Origin: Chrysophaeum taylorii
Lineage: Eukaryota; Sar; Pelagophyceae; Pelagomonadales; Pelagomonadaceae
Reading direction: 5' to 3'
NCBI GenBank assembly: GCA_029834535.1
Contig: JAQMWT010000394.1
Span: forward strand, 7,501 to 61,293
Length of the DNA: 53,793 nucleotides
The position numbers and the translations under genes were made by a program. The notes under the pieces are model-generated. The model was not told the DNA's origin. It searched no databases and saw only the letters and a list, made by a program, of their open reading frames with translations. Of this stretch, positions 825 to 53,793 are shown piece by piece (positions within the stretch are counted from its first letter, which is position 1; every line of letters begins with the position of its first letter).

Positions 825-3800
825 CGTAGGCGCCGTCCTCAATCGCAACCATAAGCTTAACGACCGTTGGGTTAGGGCGCCTAATACGCTTGCTCCCTGC
901 GGCGGCCCCGGCCGTCCCGGAGTGAGACGGTGCCTGCTCGCCTCGCGGGCTGGCCGGTTAGCACCCGGAAAGTCTGCGCTGGGATGGGGTTCGCTCGTTT
1001 GGGTAGAACGCGACGGACGGGTCGATTATTCGTGGACCAAAACGTTCGCGGTCTGCGACGCGACGAGAACAAGGAAGAGTTGTTCGCATCTTTACGGCGG
1101 CGTGACATCTTCGCGGCCACGTTGCAGGAGACATGGCTCACCGGCAACGAGTCGCTCGAGCGACACGGCTACGTCGCTGTTTGTTCCGGTTTGGCAGCCT
1201 CCGAGCAGTCTTCCCGCGCCAGCCAATGTGTGGCCGTGGTGCTGTCCCCTGCGGCGCAACAGGCGTGGCACGCGAGCGGCAGCACCGTTATCCGCGCATC
1301 TGCGCGAGTCATTGCGCTGCGACTCGATGTCCAGGACGATGACGATCGAGACCTCGGCCTCTTCGTCATGAGCGCTTACGCTCCAGTCGGAACCGCGCCT
1401 GACGAGAAATGGGACGCGTTCTTCGACGACATTGACCTTGCGCTTCAAGCGCGACGGCCGGACGACATCCTCGTCCTGGGGATGGACGGGAACGCGGCTC
1501 TCGGCGTGCGCTCCAAGTACGTCGTCGACGGCCCCTGTGGGCCCTACGGGGCGCCTTACGTCAACAACGCTGGCCGCCGTCTCCACACGTTCCTCGCAAC
1601 ACGGCGTCTGGCGTCGGTCGGCACGTTCTTCCGCAAGCGCGCCTACGCGTCGTGGCTGCACCCGCGCTCCTGGAAAACGTACCAGCTCGATCACATGATC
1701 TCACGGCGGCGCGACGTGCAAAGGCTCGCTGATGTGGGTTTGACCAGCAGCCTCGTGGACTCGGACCACCACGCTCTCAAGTGCATCCTGCGCGTCAAAG
1801 TCCGCCTCGCACGGCCTCCTGGCACACGGCCCTCTCTGGCGCGCCTCGACTACGCTCCCCTGCGCTCAGAAAGCACGCGCTTCGGATTCCGGCGCCGGTG
1901 GTGCTCGAAAGTGCGCGACATCTTCGGCTTGGGCCGTGGGTCACATGACGACGCGACCGACGACGCACCGACCGACGCCACGGACGGGGTACCCGACGCT
2001 GACCAGGGCTCGCCGTCCTCGCCGTACTTACGCCGTGCGCGGGCGGCGGCCTCGGCCTCTGACGCCTTACTGCCGAAGATCCGACGCCTCCGACCCGGAT
2101 GGTTTGAGGACGCGGCGGAAGAGCTCCAGCCTCTGATCGAGCGACGCAACTCCCTCCACGCGCTTGTGCTCTCGCTCGGTGCCCGGCGCCGTCTTCGCTC
2201 GGCGTCCACGGTCCTCGACGACCTTCGGGCGATCAAGTCGCGGCTCGCGAAGGCCGTAGCACGGGCGAAAGAGCGATGGATTACTCGTCTGTGCGACGGA
2301 CTCAACGCGGGAAGCGAGTCGCTCGGCGGCACCTCGAAATACTGGAACACGGTCGGACGGCTCCGACGCGGTCTCACGAAAACCACATTGGCCAGGCAGG
2401 TACAGATGACGAATGCCGACGGTAGCAGGTGCTCGTCGCCGCAGGAGAACACCGACGTGTTCAAGGCGCACTTCAAGCACCTCTACAGTCGACAAGCTCG
2501 CTACGACCCCACCGTGATCAACGACGTTGACCACTTGCCGATCCGTCCGGAACTCGGGGAACCACCGACGCAGGAGGAGATAAAGCGGGCCGTTGGTCAG
2601 CTGAACTGCACCGCGCCCGGCGAATCGGGCCTGCGCGCGGAGGTCTGGAAGGCGCTCGCCACCGACGCTCGCACGCTCCCGCTGTTGGAGCGTGTAGTCC
2701 TCGAGTTCTGGGAGTCCGACGTCCAGCCGGCCGAGTGGGACGTAGGCCTCCTCGGGATTCTCCCCAATAAGGGGGACCTCTCCCTGCCGGGCAACTACCG
2801 CGGGATCATGATGCTCGAGATCGCGCAGAAGATCGTTTCGAACATCGTCCGTGCGCGACTCAACGTCATCTGCGAGGACCTCGATCACGAGTCCCAATGT
2901 GGATTCCGACCCGAGCGCGGTACGTCAGACGCCACCTTCTCGCTCAAGCTGGCGCTGAAGAAGCGGCGTGAGCACGGTCAGGACTCGCGGGTACTGTTCA
3001 TCGATTTCGTTAAGGCGTTCGACCGCGTCCCGCGAGAGCTTCTCTGGGAGGTGCACCTGAAGTTCGGCGTCCCGCCGAAGCTCGTCGAGGTCATCAAGGG
3101 CCTCCACCGAATCCAGTTCCACTTCTCGGTCAGCGGTGTCGTCGCCTCGGTTGACTCGATCATCGGCGTCAAGCAGGGCGACGTCCTCGGCCCCGCCCTG
3201 TTCGTGCTGTTCATGGCGGCACTGACGACGTCGTTTCGACGACGCCATGGCCGCGCCCCGTGTGTCTACCGTACGCGGGAGGACTTTCAGATAACGAACC
3301 GGGGTTGGTCCGCTCGCGGCGACGAGTTCCCCTTCGATGAATCGGCGTACGCCGACGACGTCACCTTTCTCTTCTGGGACCGCCACATCGCCGCCAGCGA
3401 GACACCGCGCCTCATCGAACACTGCGACGCCTGGGGCATGGAGGTGCATTGCGGCAACCGACACACGAAGGCGGCGTCCAAAACGGAGATGCTGTTCGTC
3501 GCTCGCCCGGCACACCTGTACGGCGACCCAAAGTCGTTCGACGACACGGACCTCTCGGACATCGAGCTCGGGCGCGGCCGCTTCATACCGGTCGTCGACC
3601 AGTTTAAGTACCTCGGCTCGGTCCTCTCGCGCGACTGCCGCGACGACTCAGACGTCGACGCGCGGATCAAGAAGCCGTCTCAGGCCTTCGGTGTCTTGCG
3701 GGACTGCATCTTCGCCTCGAAGTCCGTCTCTGCTCGCGCCAAGCGCCTCGTCTATGTCTCGCTCGTCCTGGCCATCCTCCTTCACGGTGCGGAATCGTGG

Positions 3801-34784: not shown

Positions 34785-34877
34785 ATATATGTTTGGTCAC
34801 CGTAAACCCTCAACAAGTTTGGTCACTTAAGTTTGGTCAATCCGTATCTTGGTTGACTAAACTTGTACTCTTAGTAG
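34785..34877 (+). repeat. Family X array next to the nuclease-kinase gene
   Basis: Copies of AAGTTTGGTCA occur here, ending with TTGGTTGACTAAACTTGTACTC. The last segment recurs in inverted form at about 14570-14595, next to Helitron copy 4. Confidence 0.55.
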
Positions 34878-35630
34878 ATAACAGTAAAAATCACTGTGTC
34901 TCTGGTAGAGAATGGTGGCAGTGGTAGTGCTGCCTTTCTTCCTGTCCTCTAACGACACGCAGTACGGTGTACGACACAGCGATTTTGGGGGGTGTTTGTG
35001 TGAGTGTGATGTTTAGGGGGGGTGGTTCCTAACCCTAAATAGAATTCTCTATCTCTACGCCCTCGCAGATTGAACTCGGTGATGAGCGAAATCTGGGACA
35101 AACAAAACAAATGTCTGGCAAGGACAAATAGATGTTGAGTCGTGAGGAGGCGTGGCGGAAAGTGTGCGAAGTGCATGAAAGAGATAGAGGAGAGCAAAAG
35201 CAGGTCGTGTGTGAAGTGAGAAAGGAGAAAGTCCAGAGAGCTACACTATTATGTGTGCGACACTGGAACATTTCACACCTATCTCTACACGAGGGTTTTC
35301 TCTCCGTAATACGGCTTTCCCTCGCTCCTTCTTCCCTTACCCCTTCCGCCCCTTTTCTTCCACGACTATGAAGAACCCAGTCTGAAGCTCTTTTCCAACA
35401 TGGAGTAGGCCTCCAGGTGCATACCGTCGGGTACGGGGTTTTCTGTTTAATTAACAGAGACTTCGTTCCCCGTTGTCAGTGTAAACGCTTCTATGGGACC
35501 TAATGTCCTTAAGGAGTTAGGGCCTAAATCCCTACCTTGTGTAGTAGCATGTGACAAGCGGAATGGTCTGTACACGCCTAAGACTGCACGCAGTCTCTAC
35601 CATGTACCCGGCGAGGGTCAAATCTCTCCA
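34878..35630 (+). repeat. Copia C1 5' LTR
   Basis: About 753 bases ending CTCTCCA immediately before the tRNA-complementary site. The left part (34878-35236) matches 47119-47467 and 49997-50030 of C2, and the right part matches the LE relic. The left end lacks the usual TG, so the exact start is uncertain. It overlaps a short frame beginning MSG that carries a Cys pair in the C2 version. Confidence 0.65.
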
Positions 35631-36112: not shown

Positions 36113-38846
36113 ATGTCAAAACAAAAAAACAATATCTACCACTGATATCTACAAACAAGAACAAATCCTCGTTGATAAGATTAACGCAGGATTGCGTTTC
36201 CAAGATAATTCAACTAAGGTGAGCTTGCAAATTGAAACGCTTCGCAGGCATATGACAAGTCCATATGTGGACGCGTTATTCTGCTTTGATTCATATGAAG
36301 CTTACACCCGGAATGCTCCGGAATATACTCAAATCCTTGAACAAGAAACTGATATCATCTTCGCTCAATGGAATGCTGAATAAGTTAACGATTTAAACTT
36401 ACCTGATGAAGATGCCCTGCCCGAACATTTAAAGACTTGGCACGTCAGCTCTTCTCATCAACTAACGGTTGATGCCCGTAATAGCCTTGAACGACTTTAC
36501 TACCAAGAGTCGTACAACCTTGTCCGTCCTGAATTAAATGAGGATGTTAAAAATGTCCTTACTTTATTAGATACCCGATTTCCTAAATCAATTGTGCATG
36601 ATTTATCTTTAACTAACATGTCCTTTACAGGTCTCTCTAATGCCGATTGGATCAAACACTGCGAAACTTATGCTGGTTTTGTGTACATATTCTTTAACCT
36701 CGAGTCCCAGGAAAAGCCCGCTCTCGCTATGTGGCCTCAACTAAAGAAAATTTATGCGATCCCTGCACATCCCTATAAATTACGTGCTGTAATACTTTTA
36801 GCCTGTCATTACTATGAGACAGTGTGTTGTACCGATGTAACTGAGCTTGAATCTCAGTTTAATCGAATGTCTCTAAATGTTAATAGGTATGCCCATGTAT
36901 TTGTCGAACAACTCCTTTCCTTTCAATCTCGGGCAAAGCAATTAAATAATGATGAAGCATCAATCCAATTTAATAACTCCATAATCACTCTTAAAGCTCA
37001 CGAGGAGATCTACCGTCTATATGCTAATCCATCGGATCACGAGCGCTATTCTCAATCTTTATTGGAATGGTGTAAACTCTACGAGACATGCTCTTGTAAC
37101 AACTCGAGTCACGATCTCGAATTGTTGAAGCTAGTTGATCCCAACGACGTTCGTCCACTACTGGAATTCTTGTTAAAGATATATAATGAGACAAAGTTTT
37201 CCTCTAACCGACGCTTGGATAAACCCGCTTCTTGGATCCCTTACATCCCTGGTACTACCGCTACCAAGCCACCTAAGGTATTATTGATGGACACTATTCC
37301 TCAATCCCACGATTCTCTAAACAACGCTTACTCGTTGTTAGCTACTGTAGCTGGACAGTCTGGCTTCAATGCTCGTAAGCTTCGTAATGCAAAAGACAAA
37401 GCATCGACAATCTCACCCCGTGACACGTCGTACTATCGTCCACCTTCAAATTATAACGTCAAAGGTACCAGCTTCGATCGTCCTGTCTACTCATCTTCCT
37501 CTAACCGCAATGCACGCTCTAATATATCTCTTATGGACCGGGCTACTTGTCAAGTTGATCGTCTTCGCTACCTGTCTGGTAAATTGCAGGAAGCGAATCC
37601 CAATCCTTCCACCGACTCTAAAATGGTACAGGAGGAAATGAAAAGCTTATTGAGTACCCTCTGGACAACCGCTTCTCAAGCTTCGACACAGTCCTTAGAT
37701 CCTGATGAAGCCACCCAAGTTCATCTCTACTTATCTCGAGTTGATATTATGTCCAATACCATATCGAACCTCTTGGAAGCCGATGAGGAATCTCTTGTTT
37801 CAGAAGAAAAGTATCAAACTGAAACATCTGCTCCTGAAGCGTCCCCCAGAGATGCGGAGCAGAGGGGGACTGCTGATACAGAGAAAATGTTCCACACTTT
37901 CCTGGCAATTAAAGATGAGGAAATCAATAACATCCCTCAGCCGCTACTGCAGCACATAAATGCTAAAGCTCAGAATGCTATTGTGCGTCGTCAAGCTCGG
38001 GAAACTTCTTCGCACTCTGAGCTCCCCAGTAGTTTAATCAATGAAGATGATACAGATTCCCCTGTGTTGCTACCAAAACTAAGTACTGGTTTTACACTCA
38101 TCGTTGTGCCTTCCGAACAAACGCAAAGTTTCATGGCACAGTACGTGTTTGGTCAAAGCTCAACACATGCCTGTTATGCAACAATGCTTTAATTGTACAA
38201 CGAGTACAATTTGCCGCTAATGACTACGCCAGGATATGCTGACACATGTGCTTCTCAACATGTAATTAACTTTAAACGTTACGCTGATCCTATCCACATC
38301 GTAAAGCTACCCGAGTCCTTATCACCTGCTATCCAGACTGCTACGGATACGCAGAGAATCACACATGCTATGATTATAAGGACCGTCATTCCCGCTCTCC
38401 CAAAGCATCCAAATGTGGGATATGTGAAGCTAGACGTTGCACTTTTTCTACCCAAGCAAAACGACCATAACGATCCCGATCTGCACATCATCAGTATGAC
38501 TCAATGGGGAGAAGATAAACTTGGTATACACCTTTATGGAGTCGAATTTAAAGGACAATCATCTATCCAGAGTAAAATTGATGATAATGTCAAGATTACT
38601 TTGTTTAGACTCAGTAACCTGTTGCTAACTCTACCAATTTGCTCGCTACAACAAGCAAAAGCGCGTAAAATGGAACTTCGCTCACTACAGTTCAGACTAT
38701 GTGCTTTTAATGAACAACGCGAATTGCTCAAACTATACTCCACCCTCGTGGAACGAGTAATTTACGTCCCATGGCTTAAAACCATCTTGGAGTCAATGCA
38801 CTCGCAGCTGCCTTATATACGCAAGCATTTCCCACCTCCAGTATGA
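36113..38846 (+). pseudogene. Copia C1 gag-protease with three in-frame stops
   Basis: One reading frame runs from about 36120 to 38846, interrupted by TAA at 36381 and TAA at 38190, and ends at TGA 38844. The ATG at 36113 is one frame off, so a small shift lies near 36140. Gag is mostly helical with no zinc knuckle. SYYRPPSNY and SRSN-like segments match C2. The protease is recognised from ADTCAS near 38238 (C2: FDSCAT) and a later NVGYVKLDVAL segment. The active-site Gly is Cys in both. Stops make this copy inactive. Confidence 0.8.
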
Positions 38847-38957
38847 CGCAAGGTTACAACACGTTTGCTCCACACAGTAACTTCATCTCCTAGCCCACGA
38901 ATACCTACAGTAACTTTACTTTGCTCTGGGATGTCCACTCCTGCATTCTTGGCTTGC

Positions 38958-39078
38958 GCTTCTAATGACTTGCAAATCAACATCAACGTTAAAGTTCTTG
39001 TTGAGAGCGACGACAATATCACGCACATGCTACGAATACGTTTTGGTAATTCCATCGAAGTTTTCCCATCCCTACCTA
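38958..39078. repeat. 121-bp target-site duplication, left copy
   Basis: Identical to 39755-39875 except for three substitutions. It lies inside the methyltransferase coding sequence. Confidence 0.9.
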
Positions 39079-39754
39079 CGACTGCCGCGACGACTCAGAC
39101 GTCGACGCCCGGATCAAGAAGGCGTCTCAGGCCTTCGGTGCCTTGCGGGACTGCATCTTCGCCTCGAAGTCCGTCTCTGCTCGCGCCAAGCGCCTCGTCT
39201 ATGTCTCGCTCGTCCTGGCCATCCTCCTTCACGGTGCGGAATCGTGGTGCCTCACCGAGGTCCTGTTCCGCCGGCTGCGGTGTTTCCACGCGCAGTGCGC
39301 CCGCGTCATGTGTCGTGTGACCCGGAAACACACCTGGTCCCACCACATCTCAACGGAGATCCTGCGGCGGCGCCTCGGCCTCGAGTCCATCGACGTCTAC
39401 GTCACGCGCCGCCAGCTCCGCTGGGCCGGTCACGTCGCCCGCATGCCCTTCTCCCGACTCCCTCGCAAGATGCTCTCGTCTTGGGTCCGCTCCAAGCGCC
39501 CACCGGGGGCTCCGCAGATGACGTACGGGAGGTCGCTCGCCAAGGCACTCCGGAAATGCGACATCCCCTTCAACTCGTGGCACGACCTCGCACAAGACCG
39601 CGCGCAGTGGCGGTCCGCCATCCATGCACTTTCATCCCAAGCTTCTACCCCAACTGTGTGATTTTTTTGCTCTGTGATCCTGGACCGGCTACTACCGGCC
39701 CAGCCTGGCTCCCATGCCCGGGAGAGGTCCGAAGTTAGTTAGTTAGTTTAGTTA
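39079..39754 (+). mobile_element. 5'-truncated LINE fragment
   Basis: About 676 bases equivalent to 3632-4301 of the full-length LINE, ending in a GTTAGTTAGTTAGTTTAGTTA tail. The C-terminal reading frame of the LINE (AGHVARM region) is still open. It is flanked by the 121-base duplication. Confidence 0.9.
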
Positions 39755-39875
39755 GCTTCTAACGACTTGCAAATCAACATCAACGATAAAGTTCTTGTTG
39801 AGAGCGACGACAATATCACGCACATGCTACGAAGACGTTTTGGTAATTCCATCGAAGTTTTCCCATCCCTACCTA
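39755..39875. repeat. 121-bp target-site duplication, right copy
   Basis: 118 of 121 bases match 38958-39078. Confidence 0.9.
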
Positions 39876-39939
39876 GGTTTTATACATATCTCCATCGAGC
39901 ATCGGACGTTGAACGTGCACGATATTACACTGACATAGT

Positions 39940-39951
39940 GGAATTGACATC
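39940..39951. repeat. Target-site duplication of SINE-like copy b, left
   Basis: GGAATTGACATC here and GGAATTGACGTC at 40308-40319, 11 of 12 bases. Both encode the same ELTS codons. Confidence 0.8.
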
Positions 39952-40307
39952 TAACTAACTAACTAACTTCAGACCTCTCCCGAGCATGGGAGCCAGGCCG
40001 AACCGACAGGAGCCAGTCCGGAATCACGGGCCTGTAGACGAGGAGCGCCGAAAGGTCGGTCGGCGGAGAGTGACCATCAAGCTTGTCGCCATGCGACGAG
40101 GAGACGGCGATGTGACTGACAATCAACTCGTCGATAACCTTCCGTCTTCGCCCCCGGCCATACCCCGTCCCACTGCGAACGTTCCGGCTGCCAACCGGCC
40201 CGCTCGGGAGGCGAATAGGTGCCAACCTACGCCGGGAGGGCGGATGCCCTCGCAAGGCTCAGGATTCATGAGGCACCGTCCTCCATCGCAACCGCGGTCG
40301 GCGGTTG
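39952..40307 (-). mobile_element. SINE-like element, copy b
   Basis: About 356 bases on the minus strand ending in GAAGTTAGTTAGTTAGTTAG. It is nearly identical to copy c and a longer version of copy a. It keeps a roughly 100-codon open frame in all three copies (GRRRKVIDEL, HIAVSSSHGDKLDGH). No A/B box promoter was recognised. Confidence 0.8.
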
Positions 40308-41089
40308 GGAATTGACGTCACCATGCACAAATCGCAACATAATCAACGGGAGATCCATTTCCACCTTCGAACGCGATATGGATGATTCCTTGTTTCCAAG
40401 TGCTCTAAGTGTACTTGAGCTTTTAAAGCCGTTTTTTCTTTTCATGGACATGACACCACCACACTCCGCATCGTACGAAGACCATATACGAGTTGCTACT
40501 CTCATCTTCTCAACGATGCACTACACGGTGGACATATGTGGCCGATTTCCTTGCTATCTATGTGGAGATTATCAAGCGAGATAATGATGGATCCTCGTTG
40601 CACGCAAATATAACACCGGCCCTCTCGATCTGCTTTCATGGCCTAATAAACGAGGTCACCTCCTTTCTGGATATCGCAGACCATGCTAACTCCATCAGTC
40701 GCAAGTTAATAGTCGACGAACCTTGGACACAAGTCTTTCCTGACTTACCATTTGTGTCCACACCTAAACACTGTAACATTTTTAGTCGTACCGGATCCGT
40801 GCGCTTAAAGGTGACTGAGCTCGAAACCTTAACTATGCTGTTCCTTCGTCTGCACTCTAATATAACAGTCGAACATCCCAGTCAAGATGAAATGGAAGGC
40901 ATTTCTAATTTTCGCCTGGGATTCTCGACTAGTTCGAGAAAACCACTAGCTTGCATGAGATCCCCTATTGAACTCAAAGCTTTTGTGCTCCTCTATAATA
41001 TCATGGGACGATTATTCCCTAAATCCATCACATTACCTGCGTCCTTTCGTATTACACTGTTGAATCTAACCAACCGTCTCACAGGTTAA

Positions 41090-41445
41090 CTAACTAACTA
41101 ACTTCAGACCTCTCCCGAGCATGGGAGCCAGGCCGGACCGACAGGAGCCAGTCCGGAATCACGGGCCTGTAGACGAGGAACGCCGAAAGGTCGGTCGGCG
41201 GAGAGTGACCATCAAGCTTGTCGCCATGCGACGAGGAGACCGCGATGTGACTGACAACCAACTCGTCGATAACCTTCCGTCTTCGCCCCCCGGCCATACC
41301 CCGTCCCACTGCGAACGTTCCGGCTGCCAACCGGCCCGCCCGGGAGGCGAATAGGTGCCAACCTACGCCGGGAGGGCGGATGCCCTCGCAAGGCTCAGGA
41401 TTCATGAGGCACCGTCCTCCATCGCAACCGCAGTCGGCGATCAGG
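41090..41445 (-). mobile_element. SINE-like element, copy c
   Basis: Same family and orientation as copy b, inserted further along the methyltransferase region. CAGGTTAAC at the left and CAGGGTAAG at the right suggest a short imperfect target duplication. Confidence 0.75.
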
Positions 41446-42149
41446 GTAAGGGGTTATTCCTAAATAAATCCTCTACTTCACCTATCATTTACATCACTGG
41501 TGGAAGACACACAGGCGGAGACATAACAGTTTCTAACTCTCCCTCTAAATACCAGGTACACATAAATGCCTTTGGCGAAACCTACACCCTTTTAACACAC
41601 GATGCCGGAATCGACAAGACTGCTTCTCTCGAACCAGTCACCGGCTTTCTTTGGCTTTGCCAAGCATACCATCATAATAATGAAAATCAAGACTCACGTC
41701 ATCTAGTACAAGCACTGGCTTCCTATACCTCTCCTGTATTTCATGATTCTTTTGTCTTATACCCTCTGGAAAATCGTCTCGAACTTATCGACAAAATGTT
41801 TGCTTTAAGTGACATGCATTTGTCCCAAAGCAGATATTTGGGCTTTATAACATCGAGCGACAGGAAGATGGGGGCCAAAGTTCACTCTATATATACTCCC
41901 ACTCCTACCATTCGTGGATTTGCTAATATGCTCGTGTACGATCCACGACTCGATCGCATCCGACACTACTCAACTCGCGAATTGGCACGCGCCAATAACT
42001 TCACAGCGCACCAAGTCAATTTTCTTTTGTCTTTGTCCCCTGTCCTATGCTGTGATATCGTCGCAAATGCTATTCCAGCTGGAACATATCATACAATTTA
42101 TAAACACTTGTGTCAGCTTGTTTACGACTTGCGTACATTAACGCTATCA

Positions 42150-43389
42150 CCATCGTTTGACCCTGATCACGCTCCTCTAACCAAAAACTATAGGTCAACC
42201 TTCTTCACAAATATATTCCCAACATATACGTCTTTAACATTACACCAGAGTTCCATTACTATGTTCTACATGTCCAATAAAAAACTCTTGTGTTGTGATA
42301 CTATCACTTCTAACCACGAACTTACCTCTTTTCATACTGATTCAGTAGCTCATGCTTTCCTGTCTAACATCCTATCCGCATATATATTATCTCCTACTAA
42401 AGAAAAACAAATACCACTTATAACGCCAAGACAGCTCCATGAGAAGCATGCGCCCTTCAATAAGAAAGTCCATGCCAGGGGCACCCTTGCATTTCGAGAT
42501 GCGCAACAACGAGCTACCAATTTTCACAACACTCACCATTCTAGTGATTCTCAAGCTATAAAAACTGTTCAGGTTATTGCCAGTCCTGGACACCACCCAT
42601 CTGACGAACCCTACCGTAAGTTTTGTGTGGATTGTACGATTCATAAAAAAACGCTTTCCTCGTCCACACCACCTTATCAAGCAACCTTCATTCGAAACAA
42701 ATTTTCAACCTGGTGAAGCCCGGGCATGTGACGGTGGTTACGTATCTGTGCTCTCGGAATGGGGATCCTTTCGACATATTATTGTCTTCCGGTGTCTCAT
42801 TTCTGAATTTCTGTTAGTGTACTTTTGTCGTAGCACTAACTCCAGCGAATTTTGTAACGCCCTTGAGTTTGTCCGCAATTTTCGCTCTACTTATGTTCAT
42901 GTACAACTAAAACAAATTTATTGTGATTCCTTTAAACCCTATTTATCGCAGCATGTTACAACCTCCTTCCGTGTAGAACACGGTATTAATATGTCCGCGT
43001 TCCCCCCTTACTTACATGCCTTTAATCATGAAGTCGAGGCCGCTGTTGGTCACATAGCCACTGCCGCGTCTACACGACTCAGGCATATGCTTAATGTATC
43101 CTATAAAGGTCACCCCCTAATAGATCCGGCACCACACTACCCGTGGGCTGTTATACATGCTATCCAATCATATAATCTCCGCCCTAACGTTTCCCTCGAA
43201 CGTATTTATAATAAAGTCCTAAGTCCCCAACAAGTTTTGTTAGACCAATGTAACGTTCCCCAACAAGACTACCTCCAACCTTTTGGTTCTGTTTGTTATT
43301 TGCATTTGGAACCTAACCAATTTCATAAATATGAACCCCGATGCTGTCCCTACATCTACTTATGCGGTGCTAACGTTATAAATCCTTAA
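42150..43389 (+). pseudogene. Copia C1 integrase
   Basis: The frame continues from the methyltransferase into a linker and an HHCC zinc region (FHNTHH ... YRKFCVDCTIHK, about 42520-42645). After a frameshift near 42690 comes the DDE core: EARACDGGYVSV (first Asp), QIYCDSFKPYLS (second Asp) and LHAFNHEVEAAVGHI (Glu), ending with a copia-type PFGSVCYLHL segment and a stop at 43387. Catalytic acidic residues appear present, though surrounding motifs are unusual. Confidence 0.8.
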
Positions 43390-45924: not shown

Positions 45925-47118
45925 GCGAGGAGCGCGGCTTCGCCTTACGAGCATCTCGTGCACCAATCTTCTTGTAAACACGGGTGATGATCGGTTCGGG
46001 AACTCGACCACGGCGTAAAGTGAACTTGGGGGCCTACACATCAATCTCGTGCGGAGCGAAATCCGTGACACAAGGAGTTGTGCTGGATGAGATCTTGGAC
46101 TTGTCGGTGAAACTGCGACCGTCAGCGTCCTTGTACTCAGGCTTAAGCTTGCGGTTCGAAATGTGAGAGGTCGGTTTAAAGTAAGCGACATCATCATTCG
46201 GACCCAATCGGAGTAGAAGGGCAGAGCAGCCCGATCATTCTGGTAATCGTAAGGCCCGTGAACTTCAGCAACGTAGATCTTCTTGCGCCAATCAGAGCGC
46301 TTCCGGTCAGGAATCCGGAAAACAACAAACTTACAGTGCTGATGATCGTCGCGGAAAGTTTCTTCGGGTTAGCGGATGGCTCGATCAACGATCGGAGGGA
46401 CCATCGCAGGCGTGATCTGACTAACATGAACACGACGTTCTTCGGGCGGAGAGTCGAGACGACTTTCTTCTGGCGGAGAGTCGAGAGACTCAATCCTATA
46501 GGTGACCGGGAAAAGGCGTTCCTTAATAATAAAAGGTCCTCGCCACTCCGGTCGAAGCTTGTTATGAAGGAATGGAATGTAGAGCAAAACATGCGATCCC
46601 TCCTTGTATTCCACATCGACATGATCGGCGTTGTAAGCCAGTCGTTGTTTCTTCAAAGCTTTAACACGAGCGTCGTTGACGATCTTCGTATAATACTTCA
46701 ATCGTTCACGAGTCTCAGCGACTGCATCGGAGCGAGTCCTCGGCAGCAGTCGGGTATCGAAATCCATAAGTGTATAGTCAGTCGGCAACATGGGCTGACG
46801 GTTCAGGCGTAGCATGAAGGGAGAAATCTGCGTGCCTGGAATAAATTTGCGGTTGTAGCAAAGCGCAATATATTGGGCAAAGTCGGGCCAATCCGCAATG
46901 TTCCGGCCCTGAAGGCAGGCACGGAAGAAGGCCTTGATAAATCGGTTCACACGCTCAGTAGGATTCGACTGGGCATGATGCGGAATCGTAGTTTGGTAGC
47001 GCGCGTTGAAGAGATGGCAAAACTCGCGCATCAACTTATTTGCGAACTCTTTACCGTTGTCGGTACGAATCATCTGGGCCAAGTAGCCCTTGAGGAGGAT
47101 GTTAATGACAAAAGACTC
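45925..47118 (-). pseudogene. Gypsy G3 integrase fragment
   Basis: Read on the minus strand from 47118: MIRTDNGKEFANKL (second Asp of DDE) and NPTERVNRFIKAF (Glu), a RPEWRGPFII segment, then a C-terminal region with KPEYKDADG and PHEIDV, equivalent to the G1 C terminus. The first half of integrase and everything upstream is cut off where the C2 LTR begins. A frame change near 46370-46500 includes a duplicated DSPPEE-R block. Confidence 0.8.
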
Positions 47119-47467
47119 GCAGATAACAGTAAAAATCACTGTGCCTCTGGTACTCTGTGCCTCTGGTGGAGAATGGTGGCAGTGGTAGTGCTGCCTTTCG
47201 TCCTGTCCTCTAACGACACAAAGAGCAGCACGGTGTACGACACATCGATTTTGTGGTTGTAGGTGTGAGTGTGAGGTTAAGGGGGGGGTTCCTAACCCTA
47301 AATGGAATTTTCTATCTCTACGCCCTCGCAGATTGAACTCGGTGATGAGCGAAAACTGGGACAAACAAAAACAATGTCGGGCCAAGGACAAATGGATGTC
47401 GAGTCGCGAGGAGGCGTTGAAGGAAAGTGTGCGAAGTGCATGAAAGAGATAGAGGAAAACGAAACGC
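47119..47467 (+). repeat. Copia C2 5' LTR, first part
   Basis: Matches 34878-35220 of the C1 LTR. It resumes at 50001 after the G2 insertion. Together the parts total about 740 bases and end CTCTGCA at 50388, just before the primer site. A frame starting MSGQGQMDVES with a CAKC pair is open across the insertion point. Confidence 0.7.
47464..47467. repeat. 4-bp target duplication of G2 (ACGC)
   Basis: ACGC directly precedes the G2 5' LTR and recurs at 49997-50000 after the 3' LTR. The uninterrupted equivalent is near 35210 in C1. Confidence 0.75.
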
Positions 47468-47633
47468 TGTGGCAGTAACGCCCATTCCCCCACTTGCCTG
47501 CCTGTCACATGACTTACCCTGGTTGTTGCCCTGGTATTGACCTTGCATTTATGGGGGGGGGTGTCATCTCGACACCTTCACCTGCGCTTCCACTGGACCC
47601 AATGTACCGGGCATTTGTATTGCTTTCTTGCTG

Positions 47634-50402: not shown

Positions 50403-50911
50403 GCGGGTCCCTGAGAAATCATGTGTCAGCATGCACGTAACCTATGGGTTTTGGACTGTTACCGCGCCGGTCCACCCTCGACATGCAGACACGCCTGTCA
50501 ATATAACGCCATTACCATTGGGCTGTATATAGCATATTTCGCACACGTGATCGTCCAACCTTGTGTGTACCTGTTCATAGCATCGTGCTGTCATGTCAAT
50601 GTTGATGTTTGTGTAATTTGCCAACCTGTACTCTTGCACACATGTTATGGAATATTTTGGGTACGTCGTCCACTCGTACATTCCATGGCAATGCACCTAG
50701 CGAGCTCCTTGAGAGCACCAAAACTAACCAGCTGCCTGAGCGACTACGCTTAGCGACACTACTCTGGACTCACAGCTTGCACAGTCGTCAAATAGGCATT
50801 TTTCCATCGAAAAACGAATGAGTGTACATAGACACCGATAGACAGACCCCCCTAGAATCTCTATACAGTGTCAACTGCGTGACTGCACCCATTGGTTCCC
50901 CGTCAACTGCC

Positions 50912-53522
50912 ATGGCAGAACACGCAGCACGAGCCGCACCCAAGACGATCACAGGTGCGGACATACGATCCTCAGGAATCAAGTTCTCGATCGCGTTTTC
51001 CTGGAATGGAAGACCAATAGGGATGCTGATCTCCGTTTGGCTGTTGATGAATTGCCCCCTGAGTATCAGGAATGGAATTTCACCAATGAAGCCTTCCCCA
51101 ACCTACCTGATGCAGAAGTAGCTCAGCTAGCTACTGTTTGTTGCGACTATGAAGTCAGGGCATTACGTCCTGAAATCAATGCTCGTTTCTTAGAAGAGGG
51201 ACGAATCTTACATCGCGCGCACCCGAAAGCATTAGCTTTTGACACCCGTGTTCGTGCCCCTGTGACTATGTTTTCGTTAACTCCTGCTGACTGGCACACT
51301 TATCAGAATACGTGTGCTATATTCTTGCATACTTACTTCGATCTTGAAAGTGTTGGAAAACCAGCACCTGCGGCCTGGCCCGCCATCAATGAGGTATACA
51401 ACAAGAGTTATTTACCCAACAAGGCTCGAGCCATTATGCTCATTGTCTTTAGTCACTACGAGTCTGTTACGACTACTGATGTGTCCTACTTGAAACAGCA
51501 GTTTAACTCTGTTGTTTATAATCCTAACTGGTAAGTCCATGGATTTATCGAAGCTGTCCTAGCATTTAGGCAAGTCTCTTACCAACTTAACCAGGAAGAG
51601 ACTGATCTTCAATTCGACTTTGGTGCTCTTTGTATAGAAATTTATGAAGGATACATCGGCACTACGCCGATAATATCAGCAACAATCGTTACGATCGTGG
51701 TTGGGTAGATTGGTGTTATATGTATGAAACTCGATCTTCATCTCGGCCTGTGCCAGAAGCTGAACGATTGTGTCACCCTACCAACCCTAGCTATATCTTA
51801 GAATGTACATTAGACTTATATAATGTAGTATCAAATGGGTCGAACAAAATACGCTTAGAACGCCCTGTTTCTTGGCAGCCCTATGTCGAAGGATTAGCAT
51901 CACAACCAAAGCCAAAGTTACTGCTTACAAACACGCTGGATTTATCAGGCAAAAGTCTGACTCAAACTGCTAACACACTCGCCTTCATTACTGCGTCTCA
52001 ACCTGGTACATCTTCCACGTTTAATGCTATACGCTTGCGTAACTCTAATGATGCTCGCCACCCTTTCTCTCGCAGCGATCTGTCATATTATCGTTCTGGT
52101 GATTCTTATGTCACCAAGAAAACTACTGGACAGTCTAATGATCGCCAAATTTACCCCCGCACTTTTGACAGGTCCTCTCGATCTAACATGAAATTATTAG
52201 ATCGAACGAAGCACACGTTAAATACACTGCAAGAGCAGTTTAGCGAACTTACGGAGCATGTGACAGACAATGATACCACGGCTCAGCTACACCAGAATAT
52301 CAACAAATTATTCGAGACTCTATTACAATCCGCTGACATTCTGTCAACGACATCTACTGAGGACAATCGTGCCTTACTTCGCCAAAACGAACAACTCATG
52401 TTCGCAGAAGACATCACTTATGATGTAGACGTCCATCTTTCCTCGACCGAACAGTCGTTGAACTACGTGGAGCCACAACGTCATACTGTTGCTACTGCTC
52501 CCACCCTAAAGGCCACTCCTACTACAGATAATAAGGATGCCTCCAACACACAGGGTAATCCCTCCAATAGTGTGCCTAGCTTCTTTACTGCTTCCGCCAT
52601 CTCGGCTTTACCACCAGCGTTACTGTCCTCGCTATCTTCACAGGTCCAATCTGCCCTCGACCAACCACCACAAGCCGAAACCAAAAGGTATGCCGATCAT
52701 ACTTCGCTATCGTCATTTGATGAGAAGCACGGCATGGTTGATGAGGCTGACGAACCACCACCACCTGTTCAACCTATTATCATTCCAACTCATCTGTTAT
52801 TGCTGGAGAACTTCTTCACTGCCAGCCTCTCCACTACTTGCCCGCATTCGGAAAATGCCTTCCTCACCAACTATATGAAGGTAAACAGTGTCCCTCAACA
52901 TTGTTCCTTTCTATATTTTGACTCTTGTGCTACCATCTCATTGATGTCCACGTACGATTTTGCAATACCAAATCACATTATTCCACTGGACTCCAAATAC
53001 GCGCCGATTGTCATTCAAACTGCCACTGGACAACAACGTGTCTCACACATGATGTTAACGCGCAACATAGTTGTTCCCCTACCAGATCATCCACAAGTTG
53101 GCTATGTTAAGATCGACTTCGCTTTATGTCTTCAGCCAGTGCATGACCGACATCTCGCTACCCTGTGCATGCTCGAGTGGAACCAGACGAACCTGACCAC
53201 TGTGTTCAATGATCGAGCTGAGCCAAAGCTCAGCGCTGTCACTAGCTGCATAGACAAAGATGTACGTATACCCGTACACTATGTAGCAGCTAATTTACCT
53301 GCACTCCCTTGTCTCACTTACAACATCGCGCGCGACAAGCGGCTAGAACTTCGTTCTCACGCATTTCCCCTCAAGCGATACCATGAAAACAGGGATCTGC
53401 TGGCATACTACAACTACCTACTCCAAAGAGTTTTACCAGATCGCCCGTGGATTCGCCCTTTGGTTCTCAATCTTCGGAAACAGAACAAATTTGTACAGCA
53501 AAATACGCAGCCATTAAGTTGA
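50912..53522 (+). pseudogene. Copia C2 gag-protease, interrupted
   Basis: The ATG at 50912 opens MAEHAARAAPK. A shift near 51000 leads to the frame of codons 51037-51534, which ends at TAA; another shift and stop lie between 51535 and 51720; then 600 open codons reach TGA at 53520. Gag segments LSYYRSGDSY and SSRSNMKLLDR match C1. The protease is marked by YFDSCAT at about 52914-52934 and PQVGYVKIDFAL near 53090-53125, again with Cys instead of Gly in the active site. The upstream part is broken, but the protease frame is clean. Confidence 0.8.
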
Positions 53523-53578: not shown

Positions 53579-53793
53579 ATGTTACTTTGTTCTGGTTTGT
53601 CAACTCCGGCGTTCCTGTCTCAAGCCACTAATGACTTAGGCTTAAATATCAATGTAAAAGTTGTTGTTGAGTCTGAAGATACGCTTGTTCGTATGTTACG
53701 CCACCGTTTTCCTACTGTAGTTTTATTTGAATCTCTCCCCGCCTTTATTAACCACATTCACCTAATCTCACCAGAGGAAAGGCGCACATTCTA
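53579..53793 (+). CDS. C5-cytosine methyltransferase-like domain in copia C2, cut by window end
   Basis: An ATG at 53579 begins LLCSGLSTPAFL, matching motif I of C1, followed by KVVVESEDTLVRMLRHRFP (motif II acidic residue and the conserved helix). The frame is open to the last base. It is shifted relative to the protease frame, whose TGA lies 57 bases upstream, so either reinitiation or a frameshift would be needed. Being intact as far as visible, it is the better copy for assigning the domain. Confidence 0.65.
   Translation, partial: MLLCSGLSTPAFLSQATNDLGLNINVKVVVESEDTLVRMLRHRFPTVVLFESLPAFINHIHLISPEERRTF

Follow-up and report, generated by a model that had tools for sequence, protein, structure and literature searches.

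What is a stretch bearing the motifs of a C5-cytosine methyltransferase (C5-MTase) doing inside the pol region of a copia retrotransposon? The question is raised by 53,793 nucleotides of Chrysophaeum taylorii DNA (GenBank assembly GCA_029834535.1, contig JAQMWT010000394.1, positions 7,501 to 61,293 of the forward strand), here called the window, in whose numbering positions are given; a first-pass annotation made from the letters alone had proposed that a copia element in it encodes such an enzyme between protease and integrase. That proposal is supported by open copies of the element elsewhere in the genome, by purifying selection, by a relative of 41% identity and by MTase profile matches of homologues, and the pol domain of this element family, family A, is best read as a strongly diverged C5-MTase.

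From position 36384 the plus strand of the window reads through a gag-like open reading frame (ORF), a protease region, the MTase-motif stretch, an HHCC zinc region and integrase into the start of a copia-type reverse transcriptase (RT), an anatomy that bears out the placement of the MTase stretch between protease and HHCC/integrase. All the motifs quoted in the first-pass annotation (LLCSG, VESD, ELTSPC, LKPFFLF, STRELARANNF and, as motif X, CDIVANAIPAGT) are present in the order given there, and so are the three insertions it described in the MTase region. The features of the copy are as follows.

36384..38192, plus strand: gag-like ORF of family A, 602 aa, from the ORF list; matches elsewhere in its own genome
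38193..38846, plus strand: protease region, in frame with gag, placed by position and by the motif YADTCAS at 38235-38255
38844..38846, plus strand: in-frame UGA that separates protease from MTase and is followed by CGC, common to other copies
38847..39078, plus strand: MTase piece 1, with motif I LLCSGMSTPAF (LLCSG at 38916-38930) and motif II VESD (39000-39011)
39079..39754, plus strand: insertion 1, a LINE-like fragment (so read from its translation) with TTAG repeats at its end and 121-bp direct repeats on both sides
39755..39951, plus strand: MTase piece 2, repeating motif II (VESD 39797-39808, in the second copy of the 121-bp repeat) and running up to DIVELTS
39952..40305 (approximate), no strand assigned: insertion 2, about 350 bp, SINE-like, starting with TAAC repeats and 98-99% identical to insertion 3
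40306..41086, plus strand: MTase piece 3, with motif IV ELTSPC (40309-40326), motif VI LKPFFLFMDM (40423-40452) and motif VIII from 40561
41087..41438 (approximate), no strand assigned: insertion 3, the same repeat as insertion 2, with TAAC repeats at its start
41439..42149, plus strand: MTase piece 4, with the end of the VIII-IX segment, PTIRGF (41904-41921), motif IX STRELARANNF (41970-42002) and motif X (42051-42086)
42150..43389, plus strand: HHCC zinc region (HNTHHSSD 42525-42548, CVDC 42624-42635) and integrase, 26% identical to the integrase of a second family, B, over 234 aa
43374..44981, plus strand: end of integrase, linker and start of a copia-type RT, broken off after about 100 profile positions (RVT_2, E 5.1e-19, profile positions 10-106 of 244)

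Because its RT is of the RVT_2 type and its integrase lies upstream of RT, the element is classed on its sequence as a Ty1/copia long terminal repeat (LTR) retrotransposon. The integrase region scores 1.3e-4 against the Pfam profile SH3_retrovirus, under that profile's cut-off, and Pfam searches returned no match for the protease region or for insertion 1. The protease is identified by its position and by its D-T/S-x-A motif, which reads DTCA in family A (38235-38255) and DSCA in a related family, A2 (52914-52934), where we take the usual active-site form to be D-S/T-G-A. The stop that closes gag in the window is not universal in family A, since gag and protease form a single ORF in L030, L031 and L035.

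The window copy is dead. It is interrupted by the three insertions, its motif VIII reads C-G-D-Y-Q-A-R, two adjacent stops, W-I-L-V-A-R-K, its motif VI has Asp in place of the Glu found in open copies, its frame shifts near 40654 and its RT is cut short. The 121-bp direct repeat around insertion 1 (38958-39078 and 39755-39875, 98% identical) is very long for a target-site duplication, and the repeat forming insertions 2 and 3 may be a SINE mobilised by the TTAG-tailed LINE.

The evidence on the domain itself comes from other copies in the 70.8-Mb genome, surveyed across 697 contigs. Family A has about 100 copies there, with at least 78 matches to its gag and at least 94 to the stretch formed by MTase tail and zinc region, these counts being lower bounds in which a few copies are split into two or three matches. 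The start of the MTase is encoded in all 14 other loci examined over it (L030-L036 and L038-L044), at 91-99% identity to piece 1 of the window. Seven of these loci (L038-L044) were examined over the whole domain, and in five of them (L038, L040, L041, L042 and L043) a single frame runs from motif I through motif X, the MTase being interrupted in L039 and L044; L040 and L042 remain open beyond integrase. At C483 an MTase tail and an RT match lie in the same frame, the open frame given for either being 1720 aa long. The open copies read TLLCSGMSTPAF at motif I, VLVESDD at II, DIVELTSPC at IV, LVLFMEMTPPH at VI and GDYQARERWILVARK (containing QARER) at VIII, a motif missing from the first-pass list that in the window begins in the stretch from 40561. 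After about 300 residues they continue with RHYSTRELARANNF at motif IX, retaining REL (ACANNF in L040), and ANAIPAGTY at motif X. The ordered series I, IV (PC), VI (E), VIII (RxR), IX and X is thus found in open copies, with altered surroundings at I and VI; the canonical C5-MTase forms used for comparison are those we assume to be standard. The residues regarded as essential (the Cys of IV, the Glu of VI and the Arg pair of VIII) are all retained. The domain comprises about 580 residues, of which the unusually long VIII-IX segment, taken as the target-recognition region, accounts for about 300.

On profile searches, the first-pass annotation had looked to PF00145 for confirmation and had made its reading depend on such a match or an MTase fold in a family consensus, and on motif conservation among intact copies; here the outcome is divided. 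The motifs are kept among open copies, but family A on its own has no PF00145 match: the window pieces gave none, none of five family A members had an MTase match in Pfam, and PDB profile searches with alignments A1, A4 and A7 (family A with or without P0007, introduced below) returned no MTase. Family A copies do reach phrog_116, a phage DNA methyltransferase profile (L038 0.0013, L041 0.0012, L042 0.015; L040 not listed). A bridge is provided by P0007, an MMETSP transcript protein that shares 41% identity with family A across 360 positions and was the sole match in a search of 5.8 billion proteins (5512 candidates, E up to 10). P0007 keeps the same catalytic residues, its ORF stopping before motifs IX-X. 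Its match to PF00145 has an E value of 4.4e-4 (20.2 bits, just under the cut-off of 22) and that to phrog_116 one of 3e-8, the latter profile being matched by five of the six members of alignment A7. Family B matches PF00145 clearly in all seven members of alignment A5. When families A and B were combined in one profile (A3), the solved C5-MTase 8yf3 was found at 5.4e-4 over motifs IV-VIII, the only MTase below 0.001 among the PDB profile searches; a search with P0007 by itself found 3g7u at 0.49, ranked below unrelated matches, and the family B Pol alignment (A2 among the alignments) reached 8yf3 at 0.81. In a MAFFT alignment the motifs of A and B correspond one by one, at 19-21% identity. 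In NCBIfam, P0005 and P0007 had no match and P0001 a weak unrelated one, and long Pol queries found no relatives in the protein database.

The MTase domain is under purifying selection. In family A the pooled ratio of nonsynonymous to synonymous differences (pN/pS) across the MTase is 0.127 (six sequences, 15 pairs), with 0.093 for motifs I-VIII, 0.145 for the VIII-IX segment, 0.131 for IX-X and 0.182 for the part after the MTase. In family B the MTase has a pN/pS of 0.191 (seven sequences, 21 pairs) and the part after it 0.293; there the protease gives 0.272 (20 pairs) and the integrase 0.118 (14 pairs), RT being represented by a single pair, so that the conservation of the MTase is above that of protease and below that of integrase. 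The pairs behind these ratios are not independent, and codons from stretches aligned at less than 50% identity were excluded.

How widely do copia elements of this genome carry such a domain? PF00145 matches occur at 57 places, two of which are probably host genes: L001 is DNMT2-like (DNMT2 1g55, E 3.9e-39; 360-aa frame at 1498-2577, plus strand) and L002/P0006 has a strong PF00145 match. Of the remaining 55 places, 20 were examined with their flanks, and all 20 belong to one further copia family, B, in which the MTase lies beside a protease segment in every case and an integrase or RT was found in 19 (not in L014). In P0001 the family B Pol, protease included, is one frame without a UGA-type stop. 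No family B MTase was found in viral contigs. A third family, A2, begins at the right edge of the window, where the first-pass annotation had not recorded it.

50842..53522, plus strand: gag-protease of another MTase-bearing copia element, of family A2, with UGA and then CUA at its end; its significant matches to the gag and protease of family A show 33-35% identity
53564..53793, plus strand: start of the family A2 MTase, MLLCSGLSTPAF at 53579-53614 and VESED at 53666-53680, ending at the window edge

Over 77 positions the start of the A2 MTase shares 53% identity with the family A domain (E 1.9e-18), and A2 is probably a young family with many RVT_2 matches over profile positions 8-220. At C42 a P0007-like MTase and an RT share one reading frame, and the open frame given for either is 1691 aa long. 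Among the matches listed, MTase start and RT start are 4.25-4.27 kb apart at C9, C29, C33, C42, C46, C77, C127, C331, C334 and C679, a spacing for which matching pairs were picked by eye and which gives no rate; we infer that these equally spaced loci belong to A2, from pattern matches beside some loci (C46, C77 and C501). The genome thus holds three MTase-bearing copia families, A, A2 and B.

Expression of the domain turns on the UGA that precedes it. At every one of the 15 loci that yielded a motif I, the window's included, an in-frame TGA stands ahead of the MTase frame, and in the genome its exact flanks occur with TGA at 104 places; leaving the codon free again gives 104, so no other codon occurs there. 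The family A MTase frame has its first Met after the UGA inside motif I, so that readthrough would be the simplest route to a complete MTase-Pol, and MTase, integrase and RT of family A are most likely made in this way; both a shared in-frame stop and the lack of a start codon before the downstream domain are found in this family. The A2 flanks have 51 matches, and the one whose codon was read has TGA. As judged by position, the A2 MTase follows this codon in frame at three loci (C46, C77 and C501) and out of frame at C555. UGA followed by CUA, as in the window copy of A2, is a leaky context. Stop-and-restart at the overlapping AUGA was considered and rejected on the window sequence, in which the AUG lies in another frame that ends at a TAG before the MTase.

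Taking these findings together, we lean towards a reading in which family A pol contains a captured C5-MTase that is expressed by UGA readthrough and methylates the element's own cDNA before integration. Under such a scheme the MTase would head a low-abundance Pol made by readthrough and would be packaged with integrase and RT in the particle, where it could meet the element cDNA (less likely its RNA) and methylate it, so that new copies would arrive already marked. The benefit might be escape from recognition of unmethylated DNA, or the setting of chromatin at the insertion. Readthrough, catalysis, the cDNA substrate and the benefit are the steps that we infer.

Several observations weigh against this reading. 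In a control on the codon preceding the UGA only 2 of 106 places vary, so a stronger constraint on the UGA itself cannot be demonstrated; the RNA downstream of the UGA shows no more structure than shuffled versions (z -0.06 to 1.12, four sequences). The MTase of the window A2 copy is out of frame with its UGA. P0007 is labelled a complete ORF with a Met start 16 residues before TVTLLCSG, which does not fit obligatory readthrough in P0007, where the MTase may be made alone or truncated. Motifs I and VI of family A depart from what we take to be the canon (CSGMS, and EMT for ENV). In direct comparison of families A and B, hidden Markov model scores lie within the shuffled range and the hhalign score was equalled by 3 of 100 column-permuted profiles; because these statistics are weak, the case for homology rests on the P0007 bridge, collinearity and shared position. 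Finally, the copies examined carry no trace of CpG methylation in CpG observed/expected ratios, transition rates or fourfold C/T differences. Observed/expected is 0.83-1.06 in family A pieces, 1.0 in family B, and within the window 1.2-1.33 in the GC-rich first 25 kb and 0.88-1.03 elsewhere. Transitions occur at similar rates in the two contexts compared: in the family A MTase 0.036 at CpG against 0.041 at CpH, in gag-protease 0.041 against 0.036, and in family B 0.038 against 0.032. Fourfold C/T differences in the family A MTase do not peak before G, numbering 38/605 there, 46/769 before A, 69/618 before T and 8/386 before C. Given the missing CpG footprint, self-methylation, if any, would be transient, in another context, or on RNA. 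Separately, fourfold differences on the family A coding strand (L029-L043) are 161 C/T to 19 A/G in the MTase and 248 to 42 in gag-protease, a C/T excess without CpG preference that base composition partly explains.

As to origin, we tentatively entertain, while giving it less than an even chance, a fuller history: a single capture before the split of A, A2 and B, separate from those in LINE, DIRS and Gypsy elements, after which the MTase came to lead Pol behind a UGA readthrough (in A, probably in A2), was kept for self-methylation of cDNA in the particle, and had its dose controlled translationally. Alternatively, the MTases of A/A2 and of B could stem from two separate capture events, not from one in a shared ancestor. 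At about 20% identity, A and B are less alike in the MTase than in RT (41%) or integrase (26%), and the motif forms differ (CSGMS/EMT in A, AGGLH/ENV in B); however, the domain occupies the same protease-integrase position in both, with motifs in the same order and a VIII-IX segment of comparable length, and we regard two captures as unlikely.

The enzyme might instead be a C5-MTase acting in DNMT2-like fashion on RNA, either the genomic RNA of the element or its tRNA primer, and not on cDNA. Copia elements carry RNA in their particles and use a host tRNA as primer, and the copies show no CpG footprint. The SymbioLINE DNMT that was assayed in yeast left DNA unmethylated there, and RNA is named by its authors as a possible target (PMC5890265). 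The long VIII-IX segment is, however, unlike the compact DNMT2, of which the 360-aa frame of the host DNMT2-like protein is an example, and we hold an RNA substrate to be rather improbable.

Much the same low standing attaches to the idea that the domain is a catalytically dead MTase fold, serving as a structural or nucleic-acid-binding part of Pol. The divergence of motifs I and VI in family A would suit it, as would the missing CpG footprint, but the Cys of IV, the Glu of VI and the RxR of VIII are retained in open copies and in the 41% relative, and pN/pS is lower in motifs I-VIII than in any of the other three parts measured in family A, roughly half that of the part after the MTase. Chance resemblance in an unrelated pol spacer, to which the absence of Pfam or PDB MTase matches for family A and the poor PDB result of P0007 alone might point, is very improbable indeed, and is disfavoured by the PF00145 and phrog_116 matches of P0007, the approach of family A copies to phrog_116 near 0.001 and the clear MTase of family B at the same place.

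Two observations concern surroundings. The sole long repeat pair found across the window copy is a 347-bp direct repeat of 86% identity (34876-35199 and 47121-47464), which brackets the copia element and may be an enclosing element's; a gypsy-like integrase lies on the minus strand at 46369-47577, and together they may represent an older element into which the family A copy inserted. Adjoining the DNMT2-like gene of L001, at about 1015-1314 on the minus strand, is a frame matching chlorophyll a/b-binding proteins (PF00504, 1.2e-13), a sign that the host is photosynthetic.

Cytosine methylation usually harms mobile elements. An element that has retained a methyltransferase therefore allows a test of how the mark can serve the parasite, and this one may mark its own nucleic acid while copying itself. 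In the copia case the enzyme sits within the very polyprotein that makes and integrates the cDNA, and if the captures in LINE, DIRS, Gypsy and copia elements were independent, a repeated selective reason would be indicated. A 71-Mb genome is small enough for a complete methylome, so self-methylation can be tested directly. Since the family A MTase is invisible to Pfam, such elements may be under-counted elsewhere.

Among known systems, Tca2 of Candida albicans is, we assume, a copia-type element. It resembles family A in having an in-frame UGA, which is bypassed to express pol, but its UGA lies between gag and pol, whereas that of family A follows the protease and precedes the MTase (PMC2194720). 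The diatom CoDi elements are likewise algal Ty1/copia elements, but have the order protease, integrase, RT, RNase H, and the word 'methyltransferase' has no occurrence in the main text of their description (PMC2806351). In the available text of PMC9998398, PMC3145265, PMC12477816 and PMC5963040 no copia-borne C5-MTase is described, and a literature search, with most subscription papers and supplements outside its scope, found no such description beyond one sentence of Sarre et al. 2025, which places some DNMT3 members in LTR Copia and DIRS elements (PMC12344493). That sentence cites a 2018 paper describing Gypsy, not Copia, and may be a slip or have its details elsewhere (PMC12344493). Published DNMT-bearing retrotransposons include LINE and DIRS elements of Symbiodinium and a Gypsy element of Klebsormidium nitens, and the same paper states that Symbiodinium Copia elements lack any DNMT domain (PMC5890265). 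Some of these retrotransposon DNMTs methylate CG de novo in yeast, and for SymbioDIRS De Mendoza et al. 2018 put forward methylation of the cDNA (PMC5890265). SymbioDIRS-Dnmt3 and SymbioLINE-Dnmt share with our families a retrotransposon-borne C5-MTase, a high copy number and a marine algal host, but are DIRS (with tyrosine recombinase) and LINE elements, whereas the RT here is of copia type, which places family A outside the LINE, DIRS and Gypsy DNMT elements (PMC5890265). KnitGypsy-Dnmt3 resembles family A in being a multicopy LTR element with a C5-MTase inside its Pol ORF and purifying selection on that MTase, but it is a Gypsy element with an MTase of the Dnmt3 class, whereas ours is a copia element whose family A MTase is too diverged for Pfam (PMC5890265). 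Judged by element class, the capture is likely a separate acquisition from those of the known DNMT retrotransposons, as the first-pass annotation had surmised. What is new is a copia variant of the DNMT-bearing retrotransposons, with a UGA set, in its copies, between gag-protease and MTase-integrase.

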